Origin: an uncultured Tateyamaria sp.
GTDB lineage: Bacteria; Pseudomonadota; Alphaproteobacteria; Rhodobacterales; Rhodobacteraceae
Assembly (NCBI RefSeq): GCF_947503415.1
Contig: NZ_CANNDS010000003.1
Location: 1 to 64,000, forward strand
Reading direction: 5' to 3'
DNA length: 64,000 bases
In this document: piece after piece, positions 31,215-46,461 of the stretch
How the letters are laid out: each line of letters starts with the position of its first letter
How positions within the stretch are numbered: the first letter of the stretch is position 1
Position numbers and translations under genes: made by a program
Notes under the pieces: model-generated
Databases searched by the model: none
What the model was told of the DNA's origin: nothing
Seen by the model: only the letters and a program-made list of their open reading frames with translations

Positions 31215-32498
31215 TTACCCGCCGACCATCGAAGGCAATGTCAGCGAAATCGCGGGTACGAACGTGATCAGCATCAACGCGATCAAGATGGCAATATAGA
31301 AAGGCCAAATGGTCCGAACCGCCTTTTCCATCGGCAGCTTGCCCACGGCGCACCCGACGAACAGACATGAACCCACCGGCGGCGTGCACAGACCAAGACC
31401 AAGGTTCACCAACAGGATCATTCCAAACTGCAAGGGGTCAATGCCCAGACTGTTTGCGACTGGCAGGAAGATTGGTGTGCAGATCAGGATCAGGGCCGCC
31501 ATGTCCATGATCATGCCAAGGATCAGCAAAACGAGATTGATCATCAGGAGGATCAGAATGGGGTTCTCGGTCAACCCGGTCAGCAGATCGACCGTCTTGG
31601 CCGGGACCCGGTAGAACGTCAGCATGTATGCGAACGCGCCCGCACAGGCGATCAGGATCATGACCATGGCCGTTGTACGAACGGATTGGATGACGGCCGT
31701 TTTGAACTTTTCCACCGTGATGGAACGGTAGACCAAAAGCGTCACGAGGAATGCATAGATCGCCCCAAACGCACCGGATTCAGTGACGGTGAACACGCCC
31801 GAAAGAACGCCGCCGACAATGATCACGGCCGTCAGTAGCCCAGGGATTGCACCCAGAAAAGCCATGACCAAGGCGGCCCACCCGGGAAATTTTTCTGCGC
31901 TGTAGCCTCGTTTGACAGCCACAATGTAAGCCGCTGCGGCAAGGCATAGACACATGAGGATACCCGGCACCACACCAGCCAGGAAAAGCTTGGAGATCGA
32001 AATGCCGCCACCCGCCGCGATGGCAAAGATGATCATGTTGTGACTGGGTGGGATGATGATTCCCGCAATCGACGACGTCACCGTGACGTTTACGGCATAG
32101 TCCGCGTCGTACCCTTTTTCCTTCATGACCGGCACAAGGATGGATCCAAGTGCGGAAATGTCCGCGATGGCAGAGCCTGAGATGCCGCCGAAAAGCATAG
32201 ATGAAAACACGTTCACGATCCCCAGACCGCCGCGCACGGCCCCCACTGCGGCCTGGGCGAACCGAACAAGCCGCATGGCGATGCCGCCGTGGAACATCAA
32301 CTCCCCCGCAAAGATGAAGAACGGGATCGCCATGAGTGCGAACACGTTGATGCCGGAAATGATCCGCTGAAATCCGATCATCAATGGCAGACCTTCGTAC
32401 CAGAAGGCGACAATGGCCGAGATGCCGAGCGCGAAGGCGACAGGCGCGCCAATCACGACGCAAAAGGCAAACGCGCCCAGAAGGACTGCAATTCCCAT
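31215..32498 (-). CDS. dctM: TRAP transporter large permease DctM
   Basis: 427 residues, about 12 membrane helices. Family text includes INVFALMAIPFFIFAGELM, VFSSMLFGGISGSAIAD and IIIPPSHNMIIFAIAAGGGIS, with PPVGSCLFVGCAV near the end. It forms the ion-coupled channel of the importer. It lies nine bases after the dctQ gene. The order dctP-Q-M on the minus strand, with the GntR operator upstream of dctP, makes one regulated operon. Confidence 0.93.
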   Translation of the reverse strand: MGIAVLLGAFAFCVVIGAPVAFALGISAIVAFWYEGLPLMIGFQRIISGINVFALMAIPFFIFAGELMFHGGIAMRLVRFAQAAVGAVRGGLGIVNVFSSMLFGGISGSAIADISALGSILVPVMKEKGYDADYAVNVTVTSSIAGIIIPPSHNMIIFAIAAGGGISISKLFLAGVVPGILMCLCLAAAAYIVAVKRGYSAEKFPGWAALVMAFLGAIPGLLTAVIIVGGVLSGVFTVTESGAFGAIYAFLVTLLVYRSITVEKFKTAVIQSVRTTAMVMILIACAGAFAYMLTFYRVPAKTVDLLTGLTENPILILLMINLVLLILGMIMDMAALILICTPIFLPVANSLGIDPLQFGMILLVNLGLGLCTPPVGSCLFVGCAVGKLPMEKAVRTIWPFYIAILIALMLITFVPAISLTLPSMVGG

Positions 32499-32507
32499 GA
32501 TCGGATC

Positions 32508-33035
32508 CTATTCGATGCTGTCCGTACGCTCATCCGCGCCAAGGAACAGGCGGACAAGGTGGCCAAGTGAAAAGAGCAGGATCAGACCGCCCCCGATTGT
32601 AAGCGGCAGCGATCGCAGACCTTCCGGCACCTGGATCAAGGGGATGAGCGAGCCCCATTTGAAGACCGTCAACTGCCATCCGTACCAGAACATGAGACCG
32701 CCAAAACTGGCCATCGCCACGTCCGTGATAACAACAAGAACCGCGCGAATGTGCCGTGGCAGGGATGTACGCAGAATGGAGACAGACAGGTGGGTGTTTT
32801 CGTGCACGCCGACAGCGGCGCCCAGAAATGCGATCAGCATGACCAGCAGAAGAGCCACTTGCTCGACCCATGTCGGCGTTGCATTCAGCACGTAGCGACC
32901 GAACACCAGCCAGCCAAAAATCACCGTCAGAACAACCAGCGCGACACCGGTCACGACACGGCACACCAGCGCAATCCAGTCGAGCACGGTCGACATGCGC
33001 TGCAGCTTTGGCGAGGTTTGAGAAGCATCACTCAT
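32508..33035 (-). CDS. dctQ: TRAP transporter small permease DctQ
   Basis: 175 residues with four membrane helices; WVEQVALLLVMLIAFLGAAVG and the preceding FGRYVLNATPTW are typical of DctQ. It links the binding protein to DctM. A 75-base gap separates it from dctP. Confidence 0.88.
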   Translation of the reverse strand: MSDASQTSPKLQRMSTVLDWIALVCRVVTGVALVVLTVIFGWLVFGRYVLNATPTWVEQVALLLVMLIAFLGAAVGVHENTHLSVSILRTSLPRHIRAVLVVITDVAMASFGGLMFWYGWQLTVFKWGSLIPLIQVPEGLRSLPLTIGGGLILLFSLGHLVRLFLGADERTDSIE

Positions 33036-33110
33036 GCGGCGTCTCCTGCGTAAAAACGCCCGGCTCCGAATGGTCGAAACCGGACGCTCATCGACTAGTT
33101 TAGCGACAGT

Positions 33111-34091
33111 TTATTCAGTTGTCTGGATCAGTTCGACCAAGGGGCGCAAGCCCGGATTGGTTTCGAAATACGCCTCGTACACAGGCGCCATAGCTTCCTG
33201 GAACGGCGTCTTGTTGGCGATTTCGTTCACGACCACACCTGCGGCTTCCACCGCTTCGCGGCTTGCCGCTTCACGCGCCGCCCACAACTCTCTTTGCAGC
33301 GTGGCTGACTCTTGCGCCGCTTCCGACACAGCCGCCTGCATATCCGCAGACAGCGCGTTGAACGCGTCAGTGTTCACACAGATGCATTCGGGGATGATCA
33401 GGTGCTGCGACAGCGAGTAGTAGCCCGCGACCTCAAAGTGGCCGGTGGATTCATAGGATGGCCAGTTGTTTTCCGCACCATCCACAACCCCCGTCTTGAG
33501 CGCTTGGTACACTTCGGCAAAAGCCATCGGCGACGGGTTGCCGCCTAGCTGGGCGATCATGCCGGTAAACAGGTCGTTGTTCATGACCCGAACCTTCATA
33601 CCTACAACATCCTCGGGTGTATTGATTGCCTTGTCGCCATTGTAGAAAGACCGCGCACCTGCATCATACCATGCCAAGGGCGTCAGCCCCTTTGCGGCCA
33701 TACCTTCGGCGATGGCTGCACCACCGTCGCTGTCCAGCACGCGGAACATGTGTGGCACATCTTTGAAAACGAACGGCAACGAGACAACATTGGCCTCAGC
33801 GACGATTGGGCCAATGGGTCCCAGATTGAAGTTGCCGATCTCGAGCGCACCCGCGCGCACCTGCTCAACTGCGTCTGGCTGGCTGCCCAGCGTACCGCCA
33901 TGGAACATTTGCAGGGTGATTTCCCCACCCGTCTTTTCCGAAACCAACTCGGCGAATTTGTCCATGGCGACGGTGTTTGGATACCCTTCGACGTGAATAT
34001 TCCAACCGCGCCAGTCTGCGGCATGGGCGGTGACGCCGATGACGGCTATGGCGGCCGCGCCAACCAATGATTTGGTAATGTTGTTGAACAT
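33111..34091 (-). CDS. dctP: TRAP transporter substrate-binding protein DctP
   Basis: 326 residues from MFNNITKSLVGAAAIAVIG with a signal peptide ending AHAAD. DctP fold: LVSEKTGGEITLQMFHGGTL, VRAGALEIGNFNLGPIGPIV, and MKVRVMNNDLFTGMIAQLGG with the family Arg (VRV) that pairs with a substrate carboxylate. This Arg suggests an organic acid substrate. FAEVYQALKTGVVDGAENN is the usual DctP motif. The start has AGGGAGGA upstream. Substrate inferred to relate to the neighbouring SDR and cupin, perhaps a sugar acid. Confidence 0.9.
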   Translation of the reverse strand: MFNNITKSLVGAAAIAVIGVTAHAADWRGWNIHVEGYPNTVAMDKFAELVSEKTGGEITLQMFHGGTLGSQPDAVEQVRAGALEIGNFNLGPIGPIVAEANVVSLPFVFKDVPHMFRVLDSDGGAAIAEGMAAKGLTPLAWYDAGARSFYNGDKAINTPEDVVGMKVRVMNNDLFTGMIAQLGGNPSPMAFAEVYQALKTGVVDGAENNWPSYESTGHFEVAGYYSLSQHLIIPECICVNTDAFNALSADMQAAVSEAAQESATLQRELWAAREAASREAVEAAGVVVNEIANKTPFQEAMAPVYEAYFETNPGLRPLVELIQTTE

Positions 34092-34216
34092 GATGTCCTC
34101 CCTTTGAAATCGCGCCAATTTGCTTCTTGGGCATGCTGGCCCTTCATCGGAGGCTCCATCTCCCACCCCGATAGGTCCAACACGACGGCTTGGCATTTAG
34201 GTACATCAAGAGGAGT

Positions 34217-34230
34217 ACTAGTATACCAGT
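34217..34230. promoter_or_regulatory. 14-bp palindromic operator before dctP
   Basis: ACTAGTATACCAGT is a near-perfect palindrome (consensus ACTrGTATACyAGT) in the gap upstream of dctP. The identical 14 bases occur at 35677-35690 in the GntR/SDR divergent promoter, so this is very probably the GntR operator. Confidence 0.8.
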
Positions 34231-34309
34231 TTTGTCAACAATAATCTTCTGTGCTATTACGGCGTTCCAGGTGGCAAAATGCGGTGACAAGCGCGTTCTG
34301 TATCAACGA

Positions 34310-34822
34310 TCATGCTGTGCCGCGCACCGGGCGGTTGTTGCTGATGTTGAATTCCATCCCGTCCAGCAATTCACTGAGGTCCGGTCGTGCAGCCGGTCCA
34401 TTGGAAATGTCCACCAGCATCAAGGTGCCATCAGGGCGTATGCCGAAGGCACCGGGTTCCGCGAAACGGTCTGTCGTCTCGGCCTCGGACAAAGGATCAG
34501 AAACGTACAGGCCAAGGGACCGCATTTGATCTTCTGTCAAACCGTAGGCGAGATCGAAGTCCCAACCGAACTCCTCTTTGTCCAGCCGTGCTTTTTCCGC
34601 AGTGTCCGCCGATACGACGACCACATCCATGACAGCCACCCACTGCGCCAACATGTCGTTCAGTTTATTCAGAAACCTTTTGCACCGGGGGCAATGCCGC
34701 CCTCTGTAGACGAACAGCATGGTCCATCGATCTTGATTTTGACCAATGGTCATCGTTCCGCCGCCGACTGTGTCAAAGTTGAAGATGCCGACGGGTTCAC
34801 CAACGCGGGGTTTGGCGTTCAT
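34310..34822 (-). CDS. AhpC/TSA-like redoxin
   Basis: 170 residues from MNAKPRVGEPVGIFNFD, with AGAGAGGA before it. Thioredoxin-fold peroxiredoxin-like domain: TMLFVYRGRHCPRCKRFLNKL carries a CPRC pair, then VVVVSADTAEKARLD and GAFGIRPDGTLMLVDISNGP. It lies 23 bases after the GntR stop, in the same direction. A thiol-disulphide or peroxide-reducing role is likely; why it is tied to this regulon is unclear. Confidence 0.78.
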   Translation of the reverse strand: MNAKPRVGEPVGIFNFDTVGGGTMTIGQNQDRWTMLFVYRGRHCPRCKRFLNKLNDMLAQWVAVMDVVVVSADTAEKARLDKEEFGWDFDLAYGLTEDQMRSLGLYVSDPLSEAETTDRFAEPGAFGIRPDGTLMLVDISNGPAARPDLSELLDGMEFNISNNRPVRGTA

Positions 34823-34845
34823 GCGATATTCGTCCTCTCTTGTGG

Positions 34846-35538
34846 TCAATGGCTCTCGGGCATGAAGTAGTTTGTGTTTGTCTCTGAGATCCGCGCAATG
34901 GTCTCGTCGAGCCGCGACAGATGATGGACACCGGCCTTTATTGCCTCGACAGGATCATGGATCTTGATGGCGGCGGCTATGGCGCGGTGATCTTCGACGA
35001 GTTCCGGCATGCGGTCGCCTTTTGACAAGCTCAAAGTGCACAAGCGATCCACTTTGGACTTCTCGGACACGATCACGTCGAACGCAAATTCGGACCGCGC
35101 AATCTGGCACAGCAACTTGTGAAACTCATAATCGAGTGCGTTGAACTGATCAATGTTCCTGTCTTGAACGGATTGCTCTTGCAGCTTCAAGGCAGTGTCG
35201 AGTTGCTTTGCATCGTCGGAATCGCATTGCTCGGCTGCGCGTTGCAATATTTCCTTTTCGACGGCCAAACGAACGAATCGAGATTTGACGATCTCGCGCA
35301 TGGAAAACCGTTTCACTTCCGTGGCGCGTTGTGGGCGGATCAACAACAGGTCCTGCGTCGCCAATCGGCTGAACGCATCCCGAACAGGTTGGCGAGACAC
35401 ACCGAACTGAGTAGCGATATCGGCCTCGGAAATCTTGTCACCCGGTCTGAGACGGAGCGACGAAATCTCGTCGTAGAGGTAGGCATAGATGTCATCGACA
35501 CTTGTGCGACGCACACCGAACTGAGTTACCTGCGCCAT
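34846..35538 (-). CDS. GntR-family (FCD) transcriptional regulator
   Basis: 230 residues. The N-terminal winged helix is seen in DIYAYLYDEISSLRLRPGDK and ATQFGVSRQPVRDAFSRLAT. The C-terminal FCD domain has the metal/ligand-binding His and Asp residues (DYEFHKLLCQIARSE, EDHRAIAAAIKIHD, GVHHLSRLDE). It is divergent from the SDR gene; the 14-bp palindrome in between and the copy before dctP are the expected operators, with a sugar acid or its breakdown product as probable inducer. Confidence 0.9.
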   Translation of the reverse strand: MAQVTQFGVRRTSVDDIYAYLYDEISSLRLRPGDKISEADIATQFGVSRQPVRDAFSRLATQDLLLIRPQRATEVKRFSMREIVKSRFVRLAVEKEILQRAAEQCDSDDAKQLDTALKLQEQSVQDRNIDQFNALDYEFHKLLCQIARSEFAFDVIVSEKSKVDRLCTLSLSKGDRMPELVEDHRAIAAAIKIHDPVEAIKAGVHHLSRLDETIARISETNTNYFMPESH

Positions 35539-35676
35539 TTGGCGGCCTCCGTAATTTGGTCTTCCATTTGAGGTCTACTGCCTTTGCAGCAGAGCCAAAA
35601 CTGCATTTTCAGACCCTGCATCTGGCAGAGTGTTCAAGTTGGGCCGAAGCGGCAGCACTCCAAGTAACACTGATTG

Positions 35677-35690
35677 ACTAGTATACCAGT
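35677..35690. promoter_or_regulatory. 14-bp palindromic operator in the GntR/SDR divergent promoter
   Basis: ACTAGTATACCAGT, identical to 34217-34230. It sits 138 bases from the GntR start and 131 bases from the SDR start, suiting both autoregulation and control of the catabolic genes. Confidence 0.8.
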
Positions 35691-35821
35691 TTGAGTGAAA
35701 AGTGAAACCGAATCTGTATGGCACTGGTTATCTGCCTCACTCGACTGGTGCGTGGATGTGCGGTCGCGTGAGGGTTGCACAGTGCGGGTCAGAGCGTCGG
35801 GATAATAAAGAGGATCAAGAC

Positions 35822-36565
35822 ATGAAACTTGCTGGACAAACAGCCATCGTCACCGGTGGCGGTCGCGATATCGGTCTTGCCGCGGCACTCAAGCTCGCCT
35901 CTGAGGGTGCAAATATTGCCATTAACTACTTTTCCAGCGGCGACGGTGCAGATGCCGCTGTTGAAAAGATCAACGCGCAAGGTGGCCGCGCATTCTCGAT
36001 GCAGGGCGATCTCAAGCGCCAAGAGGATGTGGATGCGCTGGTGTCTCGAACAGTCCAAGAGTTCGGCAGTATCGATATCCTGGTGAACAATGCCGGCGGT
36101 TTGATCGCCCGCAAGAAAATGGCCGAGATGGATTTGGATCACTGGAATGCCGTGATGGATCTGAATCTGACAAGCGTTTTCATGATCACCAAAGCCTGCC
36201 TTGAGCACATGAAAACGGGCGTCGTAGTGAATTTGGCCAGCCAAGCGGGCCGCGATGGGGGCGGCGCCGGTGCGGTCGCCTACGCAACGTCCAAGGGCGC
36301 TGTCATGACGATGACGCGGGCACTGGCGAAGGAATTGGGTCCGGACATTCGGGTCAACGCCTTGTGTCCGGGTATGATCGACACCGACTTTCACAACATT
36401 CACACAGCCGATGCGGCCAGGCGCGGCTACGAGGCCGCAGTACCAGTGAAGCGACAGGGAACGATCGAAGATACGGCCAATCTGATCCTGTTTTTGGCGT
36501 GTGATGACTCGGCTTTCATCACAGGTGCAAATATCGACATCAACGGCGGCATGCTGTTTTCCTGA
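35822..36565 (+). CDS. short-chain dehydrogenase/reductase
   Basis: 247 residues. NAD(P)-binding TGGGRDIG near residue 11 (TGxxxGxG variant), NNAGG, catalytic Ser in LASQAG and YATSK (Tyr-x-x-x-Lys). C-terminal GANIDINGGML is typical. The start at 35822 has AGAGGA upstream; an open frame runs further back but has no ribosome site. With the TRAP transporter, GntR regulator and cupin this looks like part of a sugar acid or hydroxy acid catabolic set; the substrate is unknown. Confidence 0.87.
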   Translation: MKLAGQTAIVTGGGRDIGLAAALKLASEGANIAINYFSSGDGADAAVEKINAQGGRAFSMQGDLKRQEDVDALVSRTVQEFGSIDILVNNAGGLIARKKMAEMDLDHWNAVMDLNLTSVFMITKACLEHMKTGVVVNLASQAGRDGGGAGAVAYATSKGAVMTMTRALAKELGPDIRVNALCPGMIDTDFHNIHTADAARRGYEAAVPVKRQGTIEDTANLILFLACDDSAFITGANIDINGGMLFS

Positions 36566-36586
36566 TCGGCAAAGGAGCGTTTTGAC

Positions 36587-36898
36587 ATGACCAAATTCCC
36601 CGTGGTGAAAACCGGAGAAGACGTGACCCGCCAAGTACTTGCGGATGATCCTGCGCTCATGGTCGTGGTCTTTCGTTTCGACGCGGAAGGTGCCGTTGGC
36701 GATCTGCACAACCACCCTCACGTCCAATCAACCTATGTCGAGAAGGGGCGTTTTCGATTCACGATTGGCGATGAAACCAGAGAGGTTGGTCCGGGCGACA
36801 GCTTTGTCATCCCGTCAGACGTGACGCACGGCTGCATCTGCCTCGAACCCGGCACCTTGATCGATTGCTTCACCCCGCGGCGCGAGGATTTTCTTTAG
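36587..36898 (+). CDS. small cupin-domain protein (KdgF-like)
   Basis: 103 residues, one cupin fold. Metal ligands are likely His of HNHPHVQSTYVEKG plus the second-motif His in GDSFVIPSDVTHGC. Small cupins of this kind (KdgF) linearise pectin- or alginate-derived unsaturated uronates. It starts 21 bases after the SDR stop with AAAGGAG in front, so it is in the same operon. The KdgF assignment is tentative. Confidence 0.75.
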   Translation: MTKFPVVKTGEDVTRQVLADDPALMVVVFRFDAEGAVGDLHNHPHVQSTYVEKGRFRFTIGDETREVGPGDSFVIPSDVTHGCICLEPGTLIDCFTPRREDFL

Positions 36899-37075
36899 GG
36901 CACCGAGCCGATTGGTGATTGGCTCATCCTGCCGCCTTGGAAAGACGATCTATTGTAACCCTGCAAGGCGATAAGATGCGGCTCGGTGGGCGCGGGCAAT
37001 TGGCTGTTTCGGTCACTGATTGCCCTCTAACGAAAATTCGCAAAAATCAGTGGCTGCCGAAGTTGATGTATGGGC

Positions 37076-38896
37076 CTACCATGTTGCGTTTTCTCCGCGC
37101 ACATCCACGTGCACGAAGGTGTTGTACCGTCCAATCCCTCCGGAAAATACACCTCGATTGCGCATTTCCAGGATCTTGTTGTACCACGTGAGTGGCGTGT
37201 TTCCATTTGCAATTGTGATGTCTGCGGCCGTGAAACGCATGTGCTGGCTGCGGCTCGCGCCACCGATGCAACTGTTGTATTCGGGGGACCGGTAGCAGCT
37301 GCTGATGCGGAGCGGAGCCCCAAACTCATCCCGAATGGCTTGCAACAATGTACTCAGTGCAACCGCGTTCTGCCATAGGTCCTCGGGTGGGTCAGTGTTG
37401 AGCCCCTTGCAGGCACCAGCCGCATTGCCACCGCCGGGATACAGCAGTTCTGTCGCGCTGAAATTCGGTGCGTGGCTTTGAATTTCATCCTCAAAGAACT
37501 GCGCAAAACTGCGTTGGCTTGGCTGAATGGCAGGCATCTGCGTGATTTCGGGCAGCCGTGGTGGGATAATCCGTCCCTCATTTTCGTCGTCGGACGCAAA
37601 GAACCCCCAGGCCCCCAGATCGTAGTTGACCGAATGCACTTTGCCGCGTCCGGAAATGAAGGCTCTGCGCCGTGCGAATACGTCATCGGCCCACTTTGAA
37701 TTGGACAGCTGTGCGCGCAGTGCTTTCGCAAGAACTTCCCGCAAAGACATTTCCGTCGCATTGGGGTTTGCCGCCCGCGCGGCCTTCACTTTTTCAAGCG
37801 TTGAGTTGGATGCACCACCTTGTTGAATGGCCGCGTCGAAAAGCATGCCAAGGCTCAGCGGTTCGTGCAGACCCATAAGCGTCGCCTGAGGCACTGCAAT
37901 ACCGTCCCAAAACGCTTCACGACTGTGCTCCAGCATTGCCGTACGCGCACTTTCCTGCTCGCCCAGATCTGCAAACTGGGTATGCCAATCGCTGCGGATC
38001 CTGCTTTGGCCGTCCAAAACGTTTTGGCGCGCCCAGTCCAATTGACCCTGTAGCGGCATTTGCAGCATCTGACGAACTTGGTTGGCTCGTTCTGATCCGA
38101 ACACGGCGTCCAGTGTCTGTGGTCCCTTGGCTTCGATCCGGCCCAGCACGGCCTGCAAATGACCGAACTTGAGAGTGTACCCGTGATAGCCCCAGGTCAT
38201 GACGGCGCCGTCAAAGTCTCCGACAATCTTACCAAAACCGTGACCTTCAAAGGACGCCGTGGCTTGGGCACAAAAGTCGAAAAGGTCCACTTCATCCTGT
38301 CCCGTGAGGTCCGTGAATTCATTCTTCGTAATGATGGCATCCAGCGTGGACCGACCCGTGCTGGCGCGCCACGCAAGGAGGGCGTTGGCCGTGTCATCGC
38401 CAAAGATCATATCGACGCCATTGGTGCTGAAGCCTGCGTTGCTCAACGCGTTTTGCATCGCCCGAACCAAATGCCCGTACACGGCTCGCGTGCCCGAACT
38501 GCGGCGCAGCATTACCGGGTCATCGGCCACCGGGTTGACGATAGCGGGTGTCGGGGCGGTGTTGGGAACGACGGCGACGGGATCGGGCGTGATGTCGCGG
38601 ATGATGCGTTGGACGTCCTCGCGAATGGAAGCAACGACGGCGGACAGCCCATCCAAAACCTTGCCCAACACGTTCCGCCCGGCCGCCTCTGTCGAGGCAA
38701 CGACAGCCTGTGAGGCGGCGTTAACTTGCGTGGCGGCATGATCCATCATGACCACGTCGATATCGTCGATTTCAAAATTGATTTCCGAGATACGCCGCGC
38801 TTTTTCCGCGGGTGTAAGCGCGGACTGCCCGACCTCCGCCGCTGCGGCAATCAATTCATCCCGTAGTGCTTGGAGTCTTCTGAGTTCCTCGTCCAT
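37076..38896 (-). CDS. multidomain putative peptidoglycan hydrolase with C-terminal M15-type peptidase
   Basis: 606 residues, no signal peptide (starts MDEELRRLQALRDEL, coiled coil). Residues about 140-180 look like a peptidoglycan-binding helical repeat (RAMQNALSNAGFSTNGVDMI). Residues about 205-400 resemble a lysozyme/chitosanase-type domain, with an acidic pair at Glu217 and Asp227/229 (SFEGHGFGKIVGDFDGAVMT). The C-terminal 120 residues match the M15/DD-carboxypeptidase fold with zinc ligands His552, Asp559 (SQHMRFTAADI) and His596 (FVHVDVRG). So it may cut both glycan and peptide of the cell wall. A lipoprotein gene precedes it by 27 bases. The middle domain assignment is less sure than the ends. 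Confidence 0.7.
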   Translation of the reverse strand: MDEELRRLQALRDELIAAAAEVGQSALTPAEKARRISEINFEIDDIDVVMMDHAATQVNAASQAVVASTEAAGRNVLGKVLDGLSAVVASIREDVQRIIRDITPDPVAVVPNTAPTPAIVNPVADDPVMLRRSSGTRAVYGHLVRAMQNALSNAGFSTNGVDMIFGDDTANALLAWRASTGRSTLDAIITKNEFTDLTGQDEVDLFDFCAQATASFEGHGFGKIVGDFDGAVMTWGYHGYTLKFGHLQAVLGRIEAKGPQTLDAVFGSERANQVRQMLQMPLQGQLDWARQNVLDGQSRIRSDWHTQFADLGEQESARTAMLEHSREAFWDGIAVPQATLMGLHEPLSLGMLFDAAIQQGGASNSTLEKVKAARAANPNATEMSLREVLAKALRAQLSNSKWADDVFARRRAFISGRGKVHSVNYDLGAWGFFASDDENEGRIIPPRLPEITQMPAIQPSQRSFAQFFEDEIQSHAPNFSATELLYPGGGNAAGACKGLNTDPPEDLWQNAVALSTLLQAIRDEFGAPLRISSCYRSPEYNSCIGGASRSQHMRFTAADITIANGNTPLTWYNKILEMRNRGVFSGGIGRYNTFVHVDVRGENATW

Positions 38897-40062: not shown

Positions 40063-43000
40063 CTATTGAAGCTGCGCCGAATCTTCTTGGATCTTCAACT
40101 TCCAATTCTCGATCAGCGTGCCTTCGGTCTGCAACCGGCTCGCCAAATAGTACAATCGCTGTGTCGCCGGGCCGTTTGGTGCGGTCTCGAACCGTTGCTT
40201 GAGGTAATAGGGTGGAATGGCTTGCGAATAGAGCGTTGCCGATACGGTCACAGACGCCGGATCGACGTCAGGCGGCAAGTTGATCTGATAGGTTAGCTTG
40301 TCCTTGCCTGCTTTGACGCCTGCGTCATGCTCTGCCCGACCTTCGGGCATCGTTGCTTTCATGAATGCGGCGGTCACGGCAGAGTCGCCAAATCGTTCCA
40401 CAAATTCGGGCGTTCCAGGTTCCGCGGCACCCCAGGGCAACAAGCGGTTGTCTTTCGGATGGTGCACTCGGTGCACAAAACTGGTCGTGAATTCCTTCTT
40501 CGCGTTTTGCGTCAGCTCTTCGTAGATTTGTACCTGCGTTTGATCGTCGATGACGTCGTAATGGGGCTGATACAGCGCTTCGGTCGCGCCTTCGGGCACC
40601 ACATCCAGAAACTCGGTCGGGAGTGGTTGCATGTCCGGACCGATGATCACACCCGCTCCATTTGTGCAACCCGAACACCAGACCGACGCGCCACTTGCAT
40701 CGGTCACATTCACCTCCAGAAACGCCCGTCGGAAACCGACACCAGACGGTAGGCGGTGGCCGGTCTTGTTGTCGACACTGACAACGACCTCAAGCGTCCC
40801 GTCAGCTTCGGTCAGGCTTTCGATGACAACGTCGGCGGTCTCATCCCGCGCTTGCAGCGCCATTGTCTCAATGGACAGTTCCGCGCCGTTGGTTGCATAG
40901 GTCATTGGATCCTTCGGTCCCAATCCCATCTCCTCATCAAATTGCGACAGCATTTCGACCATAAAGGCATTCAGCCCCACAAAGTTGTGCCGCTTGTAGT
41001 CGTCGCGAAACGGCACATCGATCTCGTCTTGGGGCAGGGCGTTGGGCACCTCGGGCAGGTTGGTGTCCTGGATTGTTGCAATCTGAGTTGTCAGGCTGTC
41101 GATCTTGATCGTGCCGTCGAGCGTTTCAAAATTGCTTTTCATGTGGCAATCCTGACAGGACTGCGCGGTGCCCGCATCCGCGAATTGGCTGTTCTGCCAT
41201 TCGATGAACGTCGCCTGCTCGACCGAATGCTGGAACTGGACCAATGGCTCGCGGTAGGTCACGCCAAATTCTTCATTCAGGAAATCGACCGCGTTCTTGG
41301 CGGCTTGGTTGAGAATGGCTTGCTCCGCGGGCGTGAAACCGGGCAGTGGTTCGTCCGTCGCCGCGTCCACATTTGGCAGGTTGATCGTATGGCATGCGCC
41401 GCACATCTCACTGTCCTTGATGTAGTCATCATACATGGGCGTGATGCCCATCGCGTTCTGCATGGGTTTTTCGCGCACATCGGAAAACGGACCAATCAGT
41501 TCGTCCGCAGCGGTTGTGCGGAATACACCCGTTGTGCCGTTCATCAGATAGGTGTCGAGCTTGTTGTAATCGGGTTGGCCAGCAGCCTGTTCCGGCGGCG
41601 CAATATGATGGCAGACCGCGCACGAGATCCCCTCGCGGGCCAAATTGCCGTACTGATGATAGGGGTATGTTCCATCGGCCACCTGCTGCTCTTTCTCCGC
41701 AACAGTCAGCGGGTCGTGCAGCAACGTGTATTCGACTTTGAAGGCGTTGCCGTCGAGGCCCAGATCCGGGTTTGCGTGCGCATCAATTTCCAGCTGACGT
41801 TGGCCCATTGCACCGTGACACGACAGGCATGTGGTTCCAAGGTTCTCGGACAGGTCCCCAACGCCGGCCTGTTCCAGCAGTGCAAATTCCGATTCCAGCT
41901 GGGCAAAAAAGATCGGATCGCGCCCGGCGAGACCCATCGGTGACCAGCGCCATTCTCCATATTCGGAGATGTTGTAGCCGTCGCCATATTCAGAGCCATC
42001 CTTGATGAACATGGTCACACCCGACGGTGCGCCGCCCAATCCGCCATGACAGCCAAGGCAATTGTCTGATGTCAGGAAATGCTGCGTATCGTTGGGGCGT
42101 GCAGGAACATGATCCAGCCACTCGCTGGGCAATGTCTGCAAGTTGGCGCGCGTGATATCGACACCGCCTGTACCGGGGAACATGTCGGTGAAGTCCTTGT
42201 TCTGATCGACCGGCGATGCCTTGGCCGCCGCCACATGGGCGGCGCGCATGGCGGCCGGATCATGCGCGTCGTTCACATACGACTTGATCATATCTTCCAG
42301 ACTGGCACCAAACGCGGGTTTTTGCGCCTTGGGAAGATCGCGCCAACTTTCGTCGACGCGGAAAATGACCGGCTCCCCCGGATACCCTTCGATGTTTTCC
42401 AATGCGGAAAAGATCAGCTCCTCGGCGGCGGACGCATGGCAGCGCATACACATTCCATCGCCCCCGGCACCCAATGGCGGGCTGTAGGGTGCTTCAAACG
42501 TGTCGATGGCCGGCTTTCGCGCCTTCATGTCGTCCTTGTCGGCAAAGTACACCGAGGCAAAGAACCACCCGCCATGCGACAGGGCGCTGTCCTTGACCAT
42601 GACCGTCCAGTTCAAACCACCGGTATCATAGGCATAGTTCGACATCTCTTCGGCGACTTTGGCGGGATCATTGGGGTATTGTTCGACAAGGCCCGCCCGG
42701 TATTCGTTGTACATGGCAGACGGTGGGTTCACCATTTCCTTGATCACGATGGCGCCATCTTCGATCTCACCGGTCCGACCGCCTTCGAGCCACACAATGA
42801 TCTCGGGCGAGTAATACATGCGCACCGCCGGGTGGATGCCAAAGCTCATGTTAAAGACAAACGGGCCCGTATCACGCCAGCTTTTGTCGCGCTTCCACCC
42901 CAACCCCACGTATTCGCGGTTGGCAATCCACGGGAAGAGGACGTTCTCGTAGTCAATTAGCGGTAGCGTGCTCGGCAGCGGCAAGTTGGCAGACTGTGAC

Positions 43001-43092
43001 TCATACGTGGTGCTATCGGCCATGGAGGGTGTTGGGGAGGCAAGTGGAATAAGGAAACAGAGGACAAAGGCAAAAAGCAGAGAGCGCAGCAT
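40063..43092 (-). CDS. six-haem cytochrome c with P460-like N-terminal region
   Basis: 1009 residues, signal peptide ending PSMADS. The start at 43092 (MLRSLLFAFVLCFL) has AAGGAAAGA upstream; an open frame extends further back. Residues about 110-220 have the look of a cytochrome P460 domain (DGAIVIKEMV, NWTVMVKDSALSHGGWFF, then CMRCH). Six CxxCH sites lie at 215, 345, 422, 491, 564 and 646, plus a CSGC without His in the C-terminal third. KTGHRLPSGVGFRRAFLEV marks the beta-rich C-terminal part common in multihaem cytochromes. It follows lodB by 268 bases. I infer a periplasmic electron carrier or terminal partner for the LodA-like enzyme. Confidence 0.85.
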   Translation of the reverse strand: MLRSLLFAFVLCFLIPLASPTPSMADSTTYESQSANLPLPSTLPLIDYENVLFPWIANREYVGLGWKRDKSWRDTGPFVFNMSFGIHPAVRMYYSPEIIVWLEGGRTGEIEDGAIVIKEMVNPPSAMYNEYRAGLVEQYPNDPAKVAEEMSNYAYDTGGLNWTVMVKDSALSHGGWFFASVYFADKDDMKARKPAIDTFEAPYSPPLGAGGDGMCMRCHASAAEELIFSALENIEGYPGEPVIFRVDESWRDLPKAQKPAFGASLEDMIKSYVNDAHDPAAMRAAHVAAAKASPVDQNKDFTDMFPGTGGVDITRANLQTLPSEWLDHVPARPNDTQHFLTSDNCLGCHGGLGGAPSGVTMFIKDGSEYGDGYNISEYGEWRWSPMGLAGRDPIFFAQLESEFALLEQAGVGDLSENLGTTCLSCHGAMGQRQLEIDAHANPDLGLDGNAFKVEYTLLHDPLTVAEKEQQVADGTYPYHQYGNLAREGISCAVCHHIAPPEQAAGQPDYNKLDTYLMNGTTGVFRTTAADELIGPFSDVREKPMQNAMGITPMYDDYIKDSEMCGACHTINLPNVDAATDEPLPGFTPAEQAILNQAAKNAVDFLNEEFGVTYREPLVQFQHSVEQATFIEWQNSQFADAGTAQSCQDCHMKSNFETLDGTIKIDSLTTQIATIQDTNLPEVPNALPQDEIDVPFRDDYKRHNFVGLNAFMVEMLSQFDEEMGLGPKDPMTYATNGAELSIETMALQARDETADVVIESLTEADGTLEVVVSVDNKTGHRLPSGVGFRRAFLEVNVTDASGASVWCSGCTNGAGVIIGPDMQPLPTEFLDVVPEGATEALYQPHYDVIDDQTQVQIYEELTQNAKKEFTTSFVHRVHHPKDNRLLPWGAAEPGTPEFVERFGDSAVTAAFMKATMPEGRAEHDAGVKAGKDKLTYQINLPPDVDPASVTVSATLYSQAIPPYYLKQRFETAPNGPATQRLYYLASRLQTEGTLIENWKLKIQEDSAQLQ

Positions 43093-43360
43093 GATCAATC
43101 TTTCCTTGAAAATCAGGCCCAGCATCCTAGCAATTTCGATTCGAAGAAACCCGTTATGATTGAATTTGTTGATTTTTCTGACGGAGGATCGGTGCAATTC
43201 ATTGATCATAAACTACAATTTCGTGTGTCAGTCAGCGAGCGTAGCAGGTCTGGACCGTCAGCCCGTTTGACTTTGTTCTAAGGTCGGACGTGTAGTTCCG
43301 GCCGCTTATGCGTGCGTCTGCGCCACTCGATCAAATCGCACCGAAAACGTGGGCGTACTG

Positions 43361-44440
43361 CTAGACTGCAGCGTCTGTTTCCTGCTCCGCTCTTTCCGTT
43401 CGACGCTGCCAAAAGGTGCTGCCTGGCCATCTTGTTTCTCGACGGTAGACCGCCTGCTGCGCGATCAAATAGTCCTCGACGCCCTTGGCCACGCTCTCAG
43501 CATAGGCGAGCATTCGATCCCGATCTTGCGCAACAAATGCATCGGCAGCTTCGATGGCGGTCCATAATGCGGTCGTCATGCCATGCGATGATAAGGGATC
43601 AAACGCTGCGGCAGCATCCCCGATCGCAACCCAACCCGCACCTATTGATGGCGCGATCCAACTGCTGTTTGTAGCGATCCGTTTTGGCGTCCCGCACATA
43701 GAATACCCATAGTCTGACAGGTAGGCGCCAATTGCGGTCGTCAGCTGCGCATTCGCTTCCAGATCTGCATTTCCAAATCCGGGCAAATCTGCGTCAGAGT
43801 AATAGTTCACGACGACGCGCTGATCGGCCAGCACAGACATGTACCACCAGCCATGTTCCTGCGCTTCGATCAACGTGACAGGCCTGGGCGCCGTTTCGCC
43901 AGACGATGCGAACAGCGCGTATTGGCACTGTAACTTATCCGCCTGAAATCTCCGCGCGAACTTAGAGGCGACCATTGCCTTGCGCCCTGTCGCGTCAAAC
44001 ACAAACCGCGTCTGGACCTGACCTGCTGCCGTCTCAATCTGCCACAGGCCATCCGCAATCCGAAAATCGATCACGTCATGATCCATCCGGTCAGCGCCCG
44101 CGGCGGTCGCCTGTGCGGACAAGGCTGCCTCGAAAGCCCACCGGTCCAAAACGGTGGGCGGTCCTTCAAGCTGCACAATGGCATTGCGTTCGATCAGCAG
44201 ATCACTGCCCCACGCGGAATACGTGCTATGGGCGTGCCGGTGCACTTCAGATCGCAGCATTGCGTCGGACCCAAGGCGCTTGAGTAGGGGTATGGCGGCA
44301 GCGCTCAGGTGTTCACCCGGCTTGAACGCATCCTGCCGATCTTGCGCGATCCAAATCGGTCGCACACCACCCTGCGCCAAACGCAAGGCCGCCGCAGCAC
44401 CAGCGATCCCACCGCCAAGAACGGCAACATCGTGGATCAA
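43361..44440 (-). CDS. lodB: LodB-like FAD-dependent flavoprotein for CTQ formation
   Basis: About 359 residues from a probable TTG start at 44440 that overlaps the lodA stop (TTGA) with CAGGGGA about ten bases before. FAD-binding DVAVLGGGIAGAAAALRLA begins only a few residues in, which supports this start; a longer frame to 44566 would lie inside lodA. IGDAAAAFDPLSSHGMTTAL is the second flavin motif of the tryptophan-halogenase/LodB group. LodB proteins are needed in the cytoplasm to make the cysteine tryptophylquinone of LodA. Confidence 0.78.
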   Translation of the reverse strand: MIHDVAVLGGGIAGAAAALRLAQGGVRPIWIAQDRQDAFKPGEHLSAAAIPLLKRLGSDAMLRSEVHRHAHSTYSAWGSDLLIERNAIVQLEGPPTVLDRWAFEAALSAQATAAGADRMDHDVIDFRIADGLWQIETAAGQVQTRFVFDATGRKAMVASKFARRFQADKLQCQYALFASSGETAPRPVTLIEAQEHGWWYMSVLADQRVVVNYYSDADLPGFGNADLEANAQLTTAIGAYLSDYGYSMCGTPKRIATNSSWIAPSIGAGWVAIGDAAAAFDPLSSHGMTTALWTAIEAADAFVAQDRDRMLAYAESVAKGVEDYLIAQQAVYRRETRWPGSTFWQRRTERAEQETDAAV

Positions 44441-46461
44441 TTCGGCAACATCCCCTGACCCGGGTTCCACTGGAACCGCGTTTCCATGTTGTCCGCATGC
44501 TGCATTTCCACAAACACGTCGCCTTGGGGGGAGGGCATGCGCACGACAAAGCCCATACGTTCCCAAACCGTGATCATATTGGTGATGCCATCCCAGTAAC
44601 TTGAATTGGCATGATATCCGATCCCCGCGACCCCCCGTGACCAGTTGACACGGTTGGCAAAGAACTTTTCGCGCTCTTCCTCTGTCAGATTTTCATCAAG
44701 GCCTGCCATGTAAAACGGTTCAGGCAAGACATCGATGGGCAGCAGGGCGGGCCACCATACTGCGATGGGATAGTTCTGTTGCATCAACACCTGTTGGCAA
44801 CTGAACGCATCGCATTGCCACGGAAGCCCCATCCATCTCGTCAAATCACCTGCCATCTGCGGGCCGAGGGGCGGCGGCGTGTCCTCGAACCCGGCAAACG
44901 CAACCTCAGGTGTCAAAAGGCGCCCAAGGTTCTGGTTCAGGCTTGGCCGGGCACCATGCGCAATGCGAAACGGCTCTGCCGTTTCGTCGTAATTGCGCGC
45001 ATACATTTCCTTGATGCGCAGGTAATAGGTCAGCTCGACACCGGGGTGAAAGGCACCACCTGAACACGGCTCAAGCGCGGCTTGGGTCAAGGCACCCGGT
45101 TGCAGCTCAAGTGGAATATCGTCGAATGTCTGGTAGTCGGTCACGCCGTCTTCGGCGACTTGACCATTATAGTCATTCACGAATTCACCGGCTGCCCACA
45201 TGCGCAAGTAATCGTATTGCAGCTTTGGGAACTGGAACCACTGCAATGGGCTGCCATCGTAGTTCACCCCGTCGCCCAGCATATACGGAATCTTGAGGCG
45301 CTCTTCGAGATAGGCGCTGTCACTCAGGTTGTAGGGATCGCGGAAGAGATCGAAGATGGACTGACGGAAATCAGCGTTTGACGGATCGGGATCAGCCAGC
45401 CGCGCCACGTAATCAGGGTCGCCCAGGTCTCCGATCGCCATCCATCCTTGACGCAGGTTCGCGGCTTGGGTGACCCACTCCATCAAGGCCACGCGCCGAA
45501 ACGTGGGATAGACGTATTTCATGAACGAAAGTGGCAGCTCTGGCGCGTCAGACCATCCTTCCTGGACATTCATATCTTCGATCACGTCATAAAGGGTGGT
45601 GATCGGCGGGATTTCCGGTGCAAAATTTGGACCGACACACGCCACCCAAGACGGCTCCGCTTCGAACTCCTGATCGCCAACGGTGACCCGCGCGGTCACA
45701 GGCCCATCGCACCAATCGTCATGCCAGGCGTTGTTGTCGGCAAAGCTGGTGATTGGCGCATCGCTGGGGGAGTTGGAAACTCCATCTGGCGGGACCACCA
45801 GTAAACGGCCGGCGTCGTCCGTTCTGAGCTGCCCAAGGTCAACCGAAATTGCATCGGGTTGCCCGCCCCAAAAGGTGCCTTCGAATTGATATGCGGGATC
45901 ACCACCCGACTGATTGACCTCAAGTCCCGAAATCTGCAGTGCGCCGCCGTCGATGATCAGGTTCTCTTCCCGATCCGCATTTGACACGAAGTACTGGTTG
46001 CGTTTCTGCGAAGGCAATCCCGGTGCAAGCGGCCCGTTGTCCAACGGATTGTTGAACCCGTACCAATTGGCTTTTGTGTTGGCGAGATGAACGCCCCAAG
46101 TGATGCTGTCGCCGGTCACCTCACCGATGATCTGGTCATCTGCGTCAAAGGCGTACACGCGGAATCGCTGCACCTGCTTTTTGATCTTTTCCGAACCGTC
46201 CTTGAACGTGCCATCGTCCGGTTGCGGCGGCAGTCCGGGTACCTCGGGTGCGTAGAACCATTTTGGCGAACCACCAACTCTGCAAATCCCGAGCGCTGGG
46301 TAAATGCGCACTTTGGCCACCGCCGCGCCGGACGGCGCCACATCATAGACATTCTGGGTAGAGACGTTGGCGCGTGCAGGCCAAGGCGCACCGGCAATCA
46401 ACGCGGCGCTGGATGCCATCCCAAGAAATTGACGGCGTGAAGCTAATGGCTGGTCTGGCAT
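44437..46461 (-). CDS. lodA: LodA-like CTQ-type oxidoreductase with Tat signal
   Basis: 674 residues. The N-terminus LASRRQFLGMASSAALIAG is a twin-arginine signal, so the protein is exported folded. LodA-family text: YPALGICRVGGSPKWFYAPE, EPCSGGAFHPGVELTYYLR, RWMGLPWQCDAFSC and VWWPALLPIDVLP. The cysteines Cys550/Cys555 and tryptophans Trp569/Trp570 are candidates for the cysteine tryptophylquinone pair; I cannot choose between them by eye. Known LodA/GoxA enzymes oxidise lysine or glycine with O2. Here the adjacent multihaem cytochrome suggests a dehydrogenase instead. AAGGACG precedes the ATG. Confidence 0.82.
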   Translation of the reverse strand: MPDQPLASRRQFLGMASSAALIAGAPWPARANVSTQNVYDVAPSGAAVAKVRIYPALGICRVGGSPKWFYAPEVPGLPPQPDDGTFKDGSEKIKKQVQRFRVYAFDADDQIIGEVTGDSITWGVHLANTKANWYGFNNPLDNGPLAPGLPSQKRNQYFVSNADREENLIIDGGALQISGLEVNQSGGDPAYQFEGTFWGGQPDAISVDLGQLRTDDAGRLLVVPPDGVSNSPSDAPITSFADNNAWHDDWCDGPVTARVTVGDQEFEAEPSWVACVGPNFAPEIPPITTLYDVIEDMNVQEGWSDAPELPLSFMKYVYPTFRRVALMEWVTQAANLRQGWMAIGDLGDPDYVARLADPDPSNADFRQSIFDLFRDPYNLSDSAYLEERLKIPYMLGDGVNYDGSPLQWFQFPKLQYDYLRMWAAGEFVNDYNGQVAEDGVTDYQTFDDIPLELQPGALTQAALEPCSGGAFHPGVELTYYLRIKEMYARNYDETAEPFRIAHGARPSLNQNLGRLLTPEVAFAGFEDTPPPLGPQMAGDLTRWMGLPWQCDAFSCQQVLMQQNYPIAVWWPALLPIDVLPEPFYMAGLDENLTEEEREKFFANRVNWSRGVAGIGYHANSSYWDGITNMITVWERMGFVVRMPSPQGDVFVEMQHADNMETRFQWNPGQGMLPN

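Follow-up and report, generated by a model that had tools for sequence, protein, structure and literature searches.

Enzymes of the LodA/GoxA family carry a cysteine tryptophylquinone (CTQ) cofactor, and where the available text of three publications reports an activity for members of the family, these members are oxidases (PMC3948610, PMC4417212, PMC7876137). The locus described here raises the question of whether such an enzyme may also hand its electrons to haem. It lies in an uncultured Tateyamaria sp., within a stretch of 64,000 nucleotides (contig NZ_CANNDS010000003.1, positions 1 to 64,000; hereafter the window), the minus strand of which carries three complete genes in the order goxA, goxB and a gene for a P460-pentahaem cytochrome. 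An earlier note, made from the letters of the window, had taken the three for a possible new exported quinoprotein system. We report that the link between goxA and the cytochrome is real but not obligatory. A functional coupling of LodA-family enzymes with the penta-haem core appears likely, being the simplest account of genes that are recurrently adjacent and co-occur across the bacterial family; a plausible form of it is that CTQ passes its electrons to the haems.

Gene content of the locus

The three genes proposed in the earlier note were confirmed, as complete genes on one strand, from the list of open reading frames (ORFs), profile scans and family scores. The features are as follows:

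44437..46461, minus strand: goxA, a LodA/GoxA-family CTQ enzyme of 674 residues, of the type exported by twin-arginine translocation (Tat) (NF038173; PF17990 and PF18417)
46420..46440, minus strand: twin-arginine motif SRRQFLG, GoxA residues 8-14 (seen on visual inspection of the translation; GoxA relatives have similar motifs)
44797..44799, minus strand: Cys555, predicted CTQ cysteine of GoxA (alignments with 6byw and 3weu)
44752..44754, minus strand: Trp570, predicted CTQ tryptophan of GoxA (aligned with Trp697 of the 6byw chain)
43361..44449, minus strand: goxB, flavoprotein maturase (NF038174; listed ORF 43361-44566, start inferred)
40063..43092, minus strand: P460-pentahaem cytochrome of 1009 residues, Sec-type N-terminus by eye (six CXXCH; start from the alignment of relatives; listed ORF 40063-43209)
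42421..43005, minus strand: N-terminal P460-type domain of the cytochrome, with one CXXCH at 42436-42450 and Lys119 at 42739-42741 (PF16694 in relatives; Foldseek 9hrk, 6hiu)
40066..42165, minus strand: penta-haem core of the cytochrome, with CXXCH at 42046-42060, 41815-41829, 41608-41622, 41389-41403 and 41143-41157 (profile match and Foldseek to 5ze8)

The spacing between goxB and the cytochrome gene, on the same strand, is 268 bases, and a terminator scan of this gap found no minus-strand site, with scan counts that were not above those of shuffled sequence.

Association of goxA with the cytochrome

The bacterial family was surveyed in 394 genomes (393 genera), with LodA scored by PF17990 and the cytochrome by a search at E up to 1e-10; the Fisher tests are uncorrected for phylogeny or genome size. 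LodA occurred in eight of these genomes and the cytochrome in 13, window included. With the window removed, seven genomes held LodA and 12 the cytochrome, and the two overlapped in five (G102, G161, G222, G248, and G284; Fisher p 2e-7), an association that persisted when the broken cytochrome of G248 was left out (p 1e-5). The two genes sit on different contigs in G102 and about 100 kb apart in G222, and the remaining LodA genomes, G133 and G313, gave no cytochrome in a profile search. The G248 copy (L088:4754-6253; G248:C4) is broken into three pieces, with an intact goxAB pair roughly 8 kb away.

In G161 and G284, which belong to two genera other than Tateyamaria, the genes form clusters on one strand, made up of a LodA-family protein (25% BLAST identity to GoxA), a LodB-like flavoprotein, and, at about 30%, a homologue of the cytochrome with five haems. 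Gene ends overlap in the G161 cluster, and in that of G284 the LodB gene, located by tblastn, stands between LodA and the cytochrome. The chance of adjacency in two of five genomes is roughly 5e-5, for two genomes that are not independent: cytochrome and LodA are 62-65% alike between the two clusters, which were counted as one event. Neither clustered cytochrome has a P460 domain, and each genome holds an additional six-haem cytochrome elsewhere. No further case was found in the genera of G161, G284, and G248, represented by two, two, and one genomes, respectively. The LodA of the G161 cluster (L084:12682-14865) has a weak match to PF08992, the gamma-subunit profile of quinohaemoprotein amine dehydrogenase (QHNDH), at residues 608-639 in the region of the CTQ motif (E 0.045).

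Closer to the window, a neighbourhood sample of 41 genomes was searched, in which GoxA was counted at an identity of at least 60%. A full-length cytochrome was present in ten, all of the same genus and including the window, with a fragment in G019 and a marginal hit in G025; GoxA was also present in ten, nine of them in the genus (window included) plus G039. Six Tateyamaria genomes hold both genes (the window, G001, G004, G005, G012, and G014). In three of the six the genes are adjacent, as goxA-goxB-cytochrome in the window and cytochrome-goxA-goxB in G004 and G012, and in the other three they are on separate contigs. The chance of this adjacency is roughly 2e-7 if the genomes are independent. 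When the window locus is compared with its counterparts in G004 and G012, only goxA, goxB, and the cytochrome are common at the orthologue level (74-87%), the other neighbours that the window shares with fetched loci being only 38-47% identical. In trees, the window GoxA groups with those of G004 and G012 (81/94) and the window cytochrome with unlinked copies (90/86). Within the genus, a LodA paralogue of 37-40% identity tracks the cytochrome more tightly than GoxA does, occurring in nine of the nine other cytochrome genomes (p 6e-4).

Identity of GoxA and GoxB

The label of a LodA-like enzyme, under which the gene had first been described, holds at the level of domains, LodA_N (PF17990, E 7.3e-65, 219.4 bits, cut-off 26.3) and LodA_C (PF18417, E 2.7e-30, 105.5 bits, cut-off 25). 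The name itself was corrected from lod to gox because the NCBIfam equivalog model for GoxA (NF038173) scored 1170.7 bits against a cut-off of 750 and the LodA model (NF038172) 154.6 bits, far below its cut-off of 600. GoxA is adjoined by a LodB/GoxB-type flavoprotein gene, one criterion of the LodA/GoxA family; the LodB-type partner named in the earlier note is thus recovered as GoxB (NF038174, 452 bits, cut-off 400). As the match begins at residue 45 of the long ORF, the true start of goxB is probably a GTG near 44449, overlapping the end of goxA. The twin-arginine signal proposed for the enzyme was also seen, by eye, as the motif listed above.

Residues H472, D551, C555, W570, Y616, and H617 of the window GoxA align with H583, D678, C682, W697, Y766, and H767 of Pseudoalteromonas luteoviolacea GoxA (PlGoxA, 6byw). 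The CTQ of PlGoxA is formed by Cys682 and Trp697 of the 6byw chain, and the listed residues of that chain are important to the enzyme. The match to LodA (3weu) stops at 556 = 517, placing Cys555 on LodA Cys516. The CTQ pair of LodA is given as Cys516/Trp581 in the available part of PMC4417212, and Asp678 of PlGoxA is discussed in that of PMC7876137. Cys555 and Trp570 are accordingly the predicted CTQ pair, and of the candidates named beforehand (Cys550/555 and Trp569/570), Cys550 and Trp569 are merely their neighbours. The window enzyme is probably an exported GoxA-type CTQ enzyme that oxidises glycine, with CTQ formation and export as the family and the signal motif would predict.

The genome of the window contains a second LodA-family gene (G000:C4:198209-199942; L002, L039), 38% to GoxA, which is accompanied by a LodB-like gene of its own and shows no signal peptide on inspection. 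Tandem arrays were seen at two further loci (L040:7685-14219, genes assigned by Pfam, and L041:8595-15072, genes assigned by clustering), each with two different LodA types that are each followed by a LodB-like gene, and finally a hydrolase-OsmC fusion gene.

Structure of the cytochrome

Relatives of the cytochrome align from the ATG at 43092, which gives the six-haem protein of 1009 residues that the earlier note had described; the six CXXCH motifs fall at residues 216, 346, 423, 492, 565, and 647 of the translated stretch. Outside CXXCH, only three histidines are invariant in a seven-row alignment. By its sequence matches, the protein joins an N-terminal P460-type domain to a c552-like penta-haem core. 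The P460-like region had been noticed from the letters; its PF16694 match falls short of the Pfam threshold in the window protein (E 0.062) and exceeds it in the two scanned relatives with six haems (L089, 1.6e-9; L122, 1.7e-8). Lys119 falls on the cross-linking Lys78 of the Methylococcus capsulatus cytochrome P460 (McP460), by way of L089 (a weak alignment, E 0.43) and alignment A1. The distal Asp102 of McP460 corresponds to Ala in L089 and, in a weak alignment, to window residue Asn162 (by A1) or Thr164 (by an ungapped count), neither of them acidic; all 20 of 20 aligned rows keep Lys119, Asn162, and Thr164 unchanged. The roles of these residues are taken from the available parts of PMC11928373 and PMC6427953, and a table in the former lists NsP460 with the Lys, without the carboxylate, and without hydroxylamine oxidation. 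With no distal carboxylate visible, as in NsP460, another ligand is possible.

The penta-haem core matched the penta-haem cytochrome c552 of Thermochromatium tepidum (5ze8) in a profile comparison (E 1e-7). A Foldseek search with the predicted structure gave 5ze8 as first hit (E 7.6e-5), followed by two P460 structures (9hrk, 6hiu); the model, predicted from 20 sequences, is poor (mean predicted local distance difference test score 42.7), and its hits were used because the sequence profile agrees. No peroxidase family matched the cytochrome in the Pfam and NCBIfam scans. The core looks like a module, as the P460 domain is absent in the distant lodA-lodB-cytochrome clusters and present in solitary copies and in the window. 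Ten genes near cytochromes (eight close to copies that lack a neighbouring goxA, and one each or both at the linked loci L022 and L024, two in all) were searched against Pfam for a shared partner; four had no match and the rest had nothing in common. On plasmid p599725 of Paracoccus seriniphilus (L100), a 78% identical cytochrome, annotated as a hypothetical protein, adjoins nqr genes and a gene of the cytochrome c3 family, and no goxA was found in this 21-kb stretch.

Comparison with known systems

Of the possible new system, the part made up of the exported enzyme and its maturase did not prove new on comparison with the literature: an exported CTQ enzyme with its maturase is already known, because a Tat-exported, H2O2-forming GoxA has been published. 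The available text of PMC3948610 describes the Marinomonas mediterranea GoxA as bearing a Tat signal and making H2O2 from glycine, and goxAB as a two-gene operon with the surrounding genes in opposite orientation. The window GoxA resembles it in its Tat motif, its GoxB partner, and its family by NF038173/NF038174 score, a likeness drawn through the models rather than the M. mediterranea sequence; the window differs in adding the P460-pentahaem cytochrome on the same strand. Group II LodA-like proteins bear the twin-arginine motif with three exceptions, and members of groups IIA and IIB are from Alphaproteobacteria in 13 of 15 cases, according to the available part of PMC4417212. The word "cytochrome" does not occur in the main text of that paper, and a literature search with little coverage of subscription journals found no work that pairs a P460-pentahaem cytochrome with LodA/GoxA-type enzymes. 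A search for the T. tepidum penta-haem cytochrome likewise found no paper, subscription journals being mostly outside its coverage.

PlGoxA, which shares the six aligned residues, differs from the window enzyme in being longer (816 residues), with a LodA domain that starts at about residue 5 and leaves no room for a Tat signal. QHNDH (qhp) is also a CTQ enzyme with c-type haems, and its flavoprotein QhpG is related to GoxB (window GoxB against NF049967, 143.8 bits, cut-off 240), but the CTQ protein of the window is large and LodA-like. Membership of QHNDH was rejected, the window GoxA having no match to the gamma-subunit profile PF08992 at E 0.01. The cytochrome shares its five-haem core with T. 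tepidum c552 but is much longer and has the extra N-terminal P460-type haem domain. With M. capsulatus P460 (6hiu) this domain shares the fold hit and the position of the cross-linking lysine, and it differs in being fused to a penta-haem core and, as far as the weak alignment shows, in having no carboxylate at the distal position.

Discussion

The account that we favour, though only tentatively since it could well be wrong, is that the window encodes a GoxA-type glycine oxidase for which the cytochrome serves as an accessory and exchangeable partner, reoxidising CTQ alongside O2. GoxB would help to form CTQ on GoxA, as its family suggests, and GoxA would then leave the cytoplasm folded by the Tat route, as its family and signal motif suggest. 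The cytochrome would take the Sec route and receive its haems outside. O2 would reoxidise reduced CTQ, as it does in known GoxA, and so would the penta-haem core wherever the cytochrome is present, passing the electrons on to respiration; the cytochrome would be an exchangeable accessory of LodA-family enzymes in general. Related pairs in a few other marine bacteria suggest, short of proof, that haems as well as oxygen can receive electrons from such enzymes. Judged from the genes, the coupling may consist of CTQ electron transfer, of peroxide removal, or of shared ecology.

Several observations weigh against the cytochrome being an electron-accepting partner of these enzymes. The association was absent class-wide, where 336 other genomes held ten LodA, eight cytochromes, and a single overlap (G656, on separate contigs; p 0.22), and goxA and the cytochrome were unassociated within the genus (p 0.25). 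G013, G015, and G039 have GoxA but no cytochrome, and G019 has GoxA with only the cytochrome fragment. The cytochrome occurs without GoxA in G002, G003, G008, and G011, each of which has the 37-40% LodA paralogue elsewhere. Named genomes were also scanned with the cytochrome query, which gave 19 named cytochrome loci, five of them with short flanks; eight of the 19 are Tateyamaria loci that overlap the unnamed set. The fetched flanks included goxA at only two of the 19, one in Tateyamaria omphalii KCTC 12333 and one in an uncultured Tateyamaria. A tblastn search of 40 cytochrome loci with four LodA-type queries, in a set that left out the known linked loci L022, L024, L084, and L086, found LodA-family genes only at these same two. 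The M. mediterranea GoxA, in the available text of PMC3948610, is an H2O2-forming oxidase from a two-gene operon. In the G161 and G284 clusters, LodA starts directly at its LodA domain with no visible signal peptide and the cytochrome has one by eye, so that contact between the two is not obvious and the arrangement would speak against a direct one. The conserved cytochrome linkage expected in the earlier note therefore stands as an association far above chance in the family, with clusters in two other genera, and falls as a rule that holds wherever either gene occurs. The idea of the cytochrome as a constant component of all gox loci was rejected, as each gene occurs without the other and most named cytochrome loci have no goxA in their fetched flanks.

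The same distribution lends weight to a plainer explanation, that GoxA is an ordinary O2-using, H2O2-releasing enzyme and the cytochrome an unrelated neighbour with a substrate of its own, both genes being accessory ones in marine Roseobacters that now and then come to lie side by side. Known GoxA acts as an oxidase, the cytochrome has its own N-terminal P460-type domain, 17 of the 19 named cytochrome loci lack goxA in their fetched flanks, and cytochrome homologues occur in eight other genomes of the class, seven of them without LodA; the Paracoccus copy beside nqr genes, where no goxA is annotated, fits as well. The co-occurrence across the family, far above chance, and the lodA-lodB-cytochrome clusters of two other genera argue in the opposite direction, and we regard this explanation as quite possible, though less likely than not.

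Were the two proteins connected otherwise than by electron transfer from CTQ, the cytochrome might protect against GoxA, its P460-type or another open haem removing H2O2 or another reactive product with electrons supplied through the penta-haem core. GoxA does make H2O2 in the available text of PMC3948610, and the P460-type domain keeps the Lys position with no distal carboxylate visible, like NsP460. The clustered cytochromes of G161 and G284 lack that domain, however, and no Pfam or NCBIfam peroxidase family scored on the window protein, which leaves protection improbable. Another connection would be completion of the cofactor, in which the cytochrome oxidises a reduced CTQ precursor on exported GoxA, as MauG does for tryptophan tryptophylquinone; a similar role has been proposed for the QHNDH haems. 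Completion of tryptophylquinones by haem proteins occurs in other systems, according to the discussion in the available part of PMC7876137, but the same text names the flavoprotein GoxB as the factor required for CTQ in GoxA, and goxA/goxB pairs exist without the cytochrome; we consider this role very improbable.

A stronger form of the electron-transfer reading would have a branch of the LodA/GoxA family act as quinoprotein dehydrogenases, in which a dedicated penta-haem cytochrome receives the electrons that CTQ takes from glycine or another amine. The core would then be a plug-in wire, fed by a separate CTQ enzyme, as in the lodA-lodB-cytochrome clusters that lack the P460 domain, or by a fused P460-type haem, and the window locus would have both inputs. 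We think this rather unlikely, because the characterised GoxA uses O2 and the cytochrome often has no goxA beside it. If electron transfer to the haems does occur, extracytoplasmic amino acid oxidation would feed respiration in marine Roseobacters rather than yield peroxide alone, and the LodA/GoxA family would provide, beside QHNDH, a second and structurally distinct case of CTQ-haem coupling. The lodA-lodB-pentahaem clusters offer a small test system for such coupling.

Genes beyond the cytochrome

Past the cytochrome, none of the genes at 31215-38896 of the window was common to the other fetched loci at the orthologue level. They include genes for the DctM subunit of a tripartite ATP-independent periplasmic (TRAP) transporter, for a cupin, and for an M15 peptidase. 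Two more in the same interval, for a regulator of GntR type and a short-chain dehydrogenase, were recognised by eye alone.

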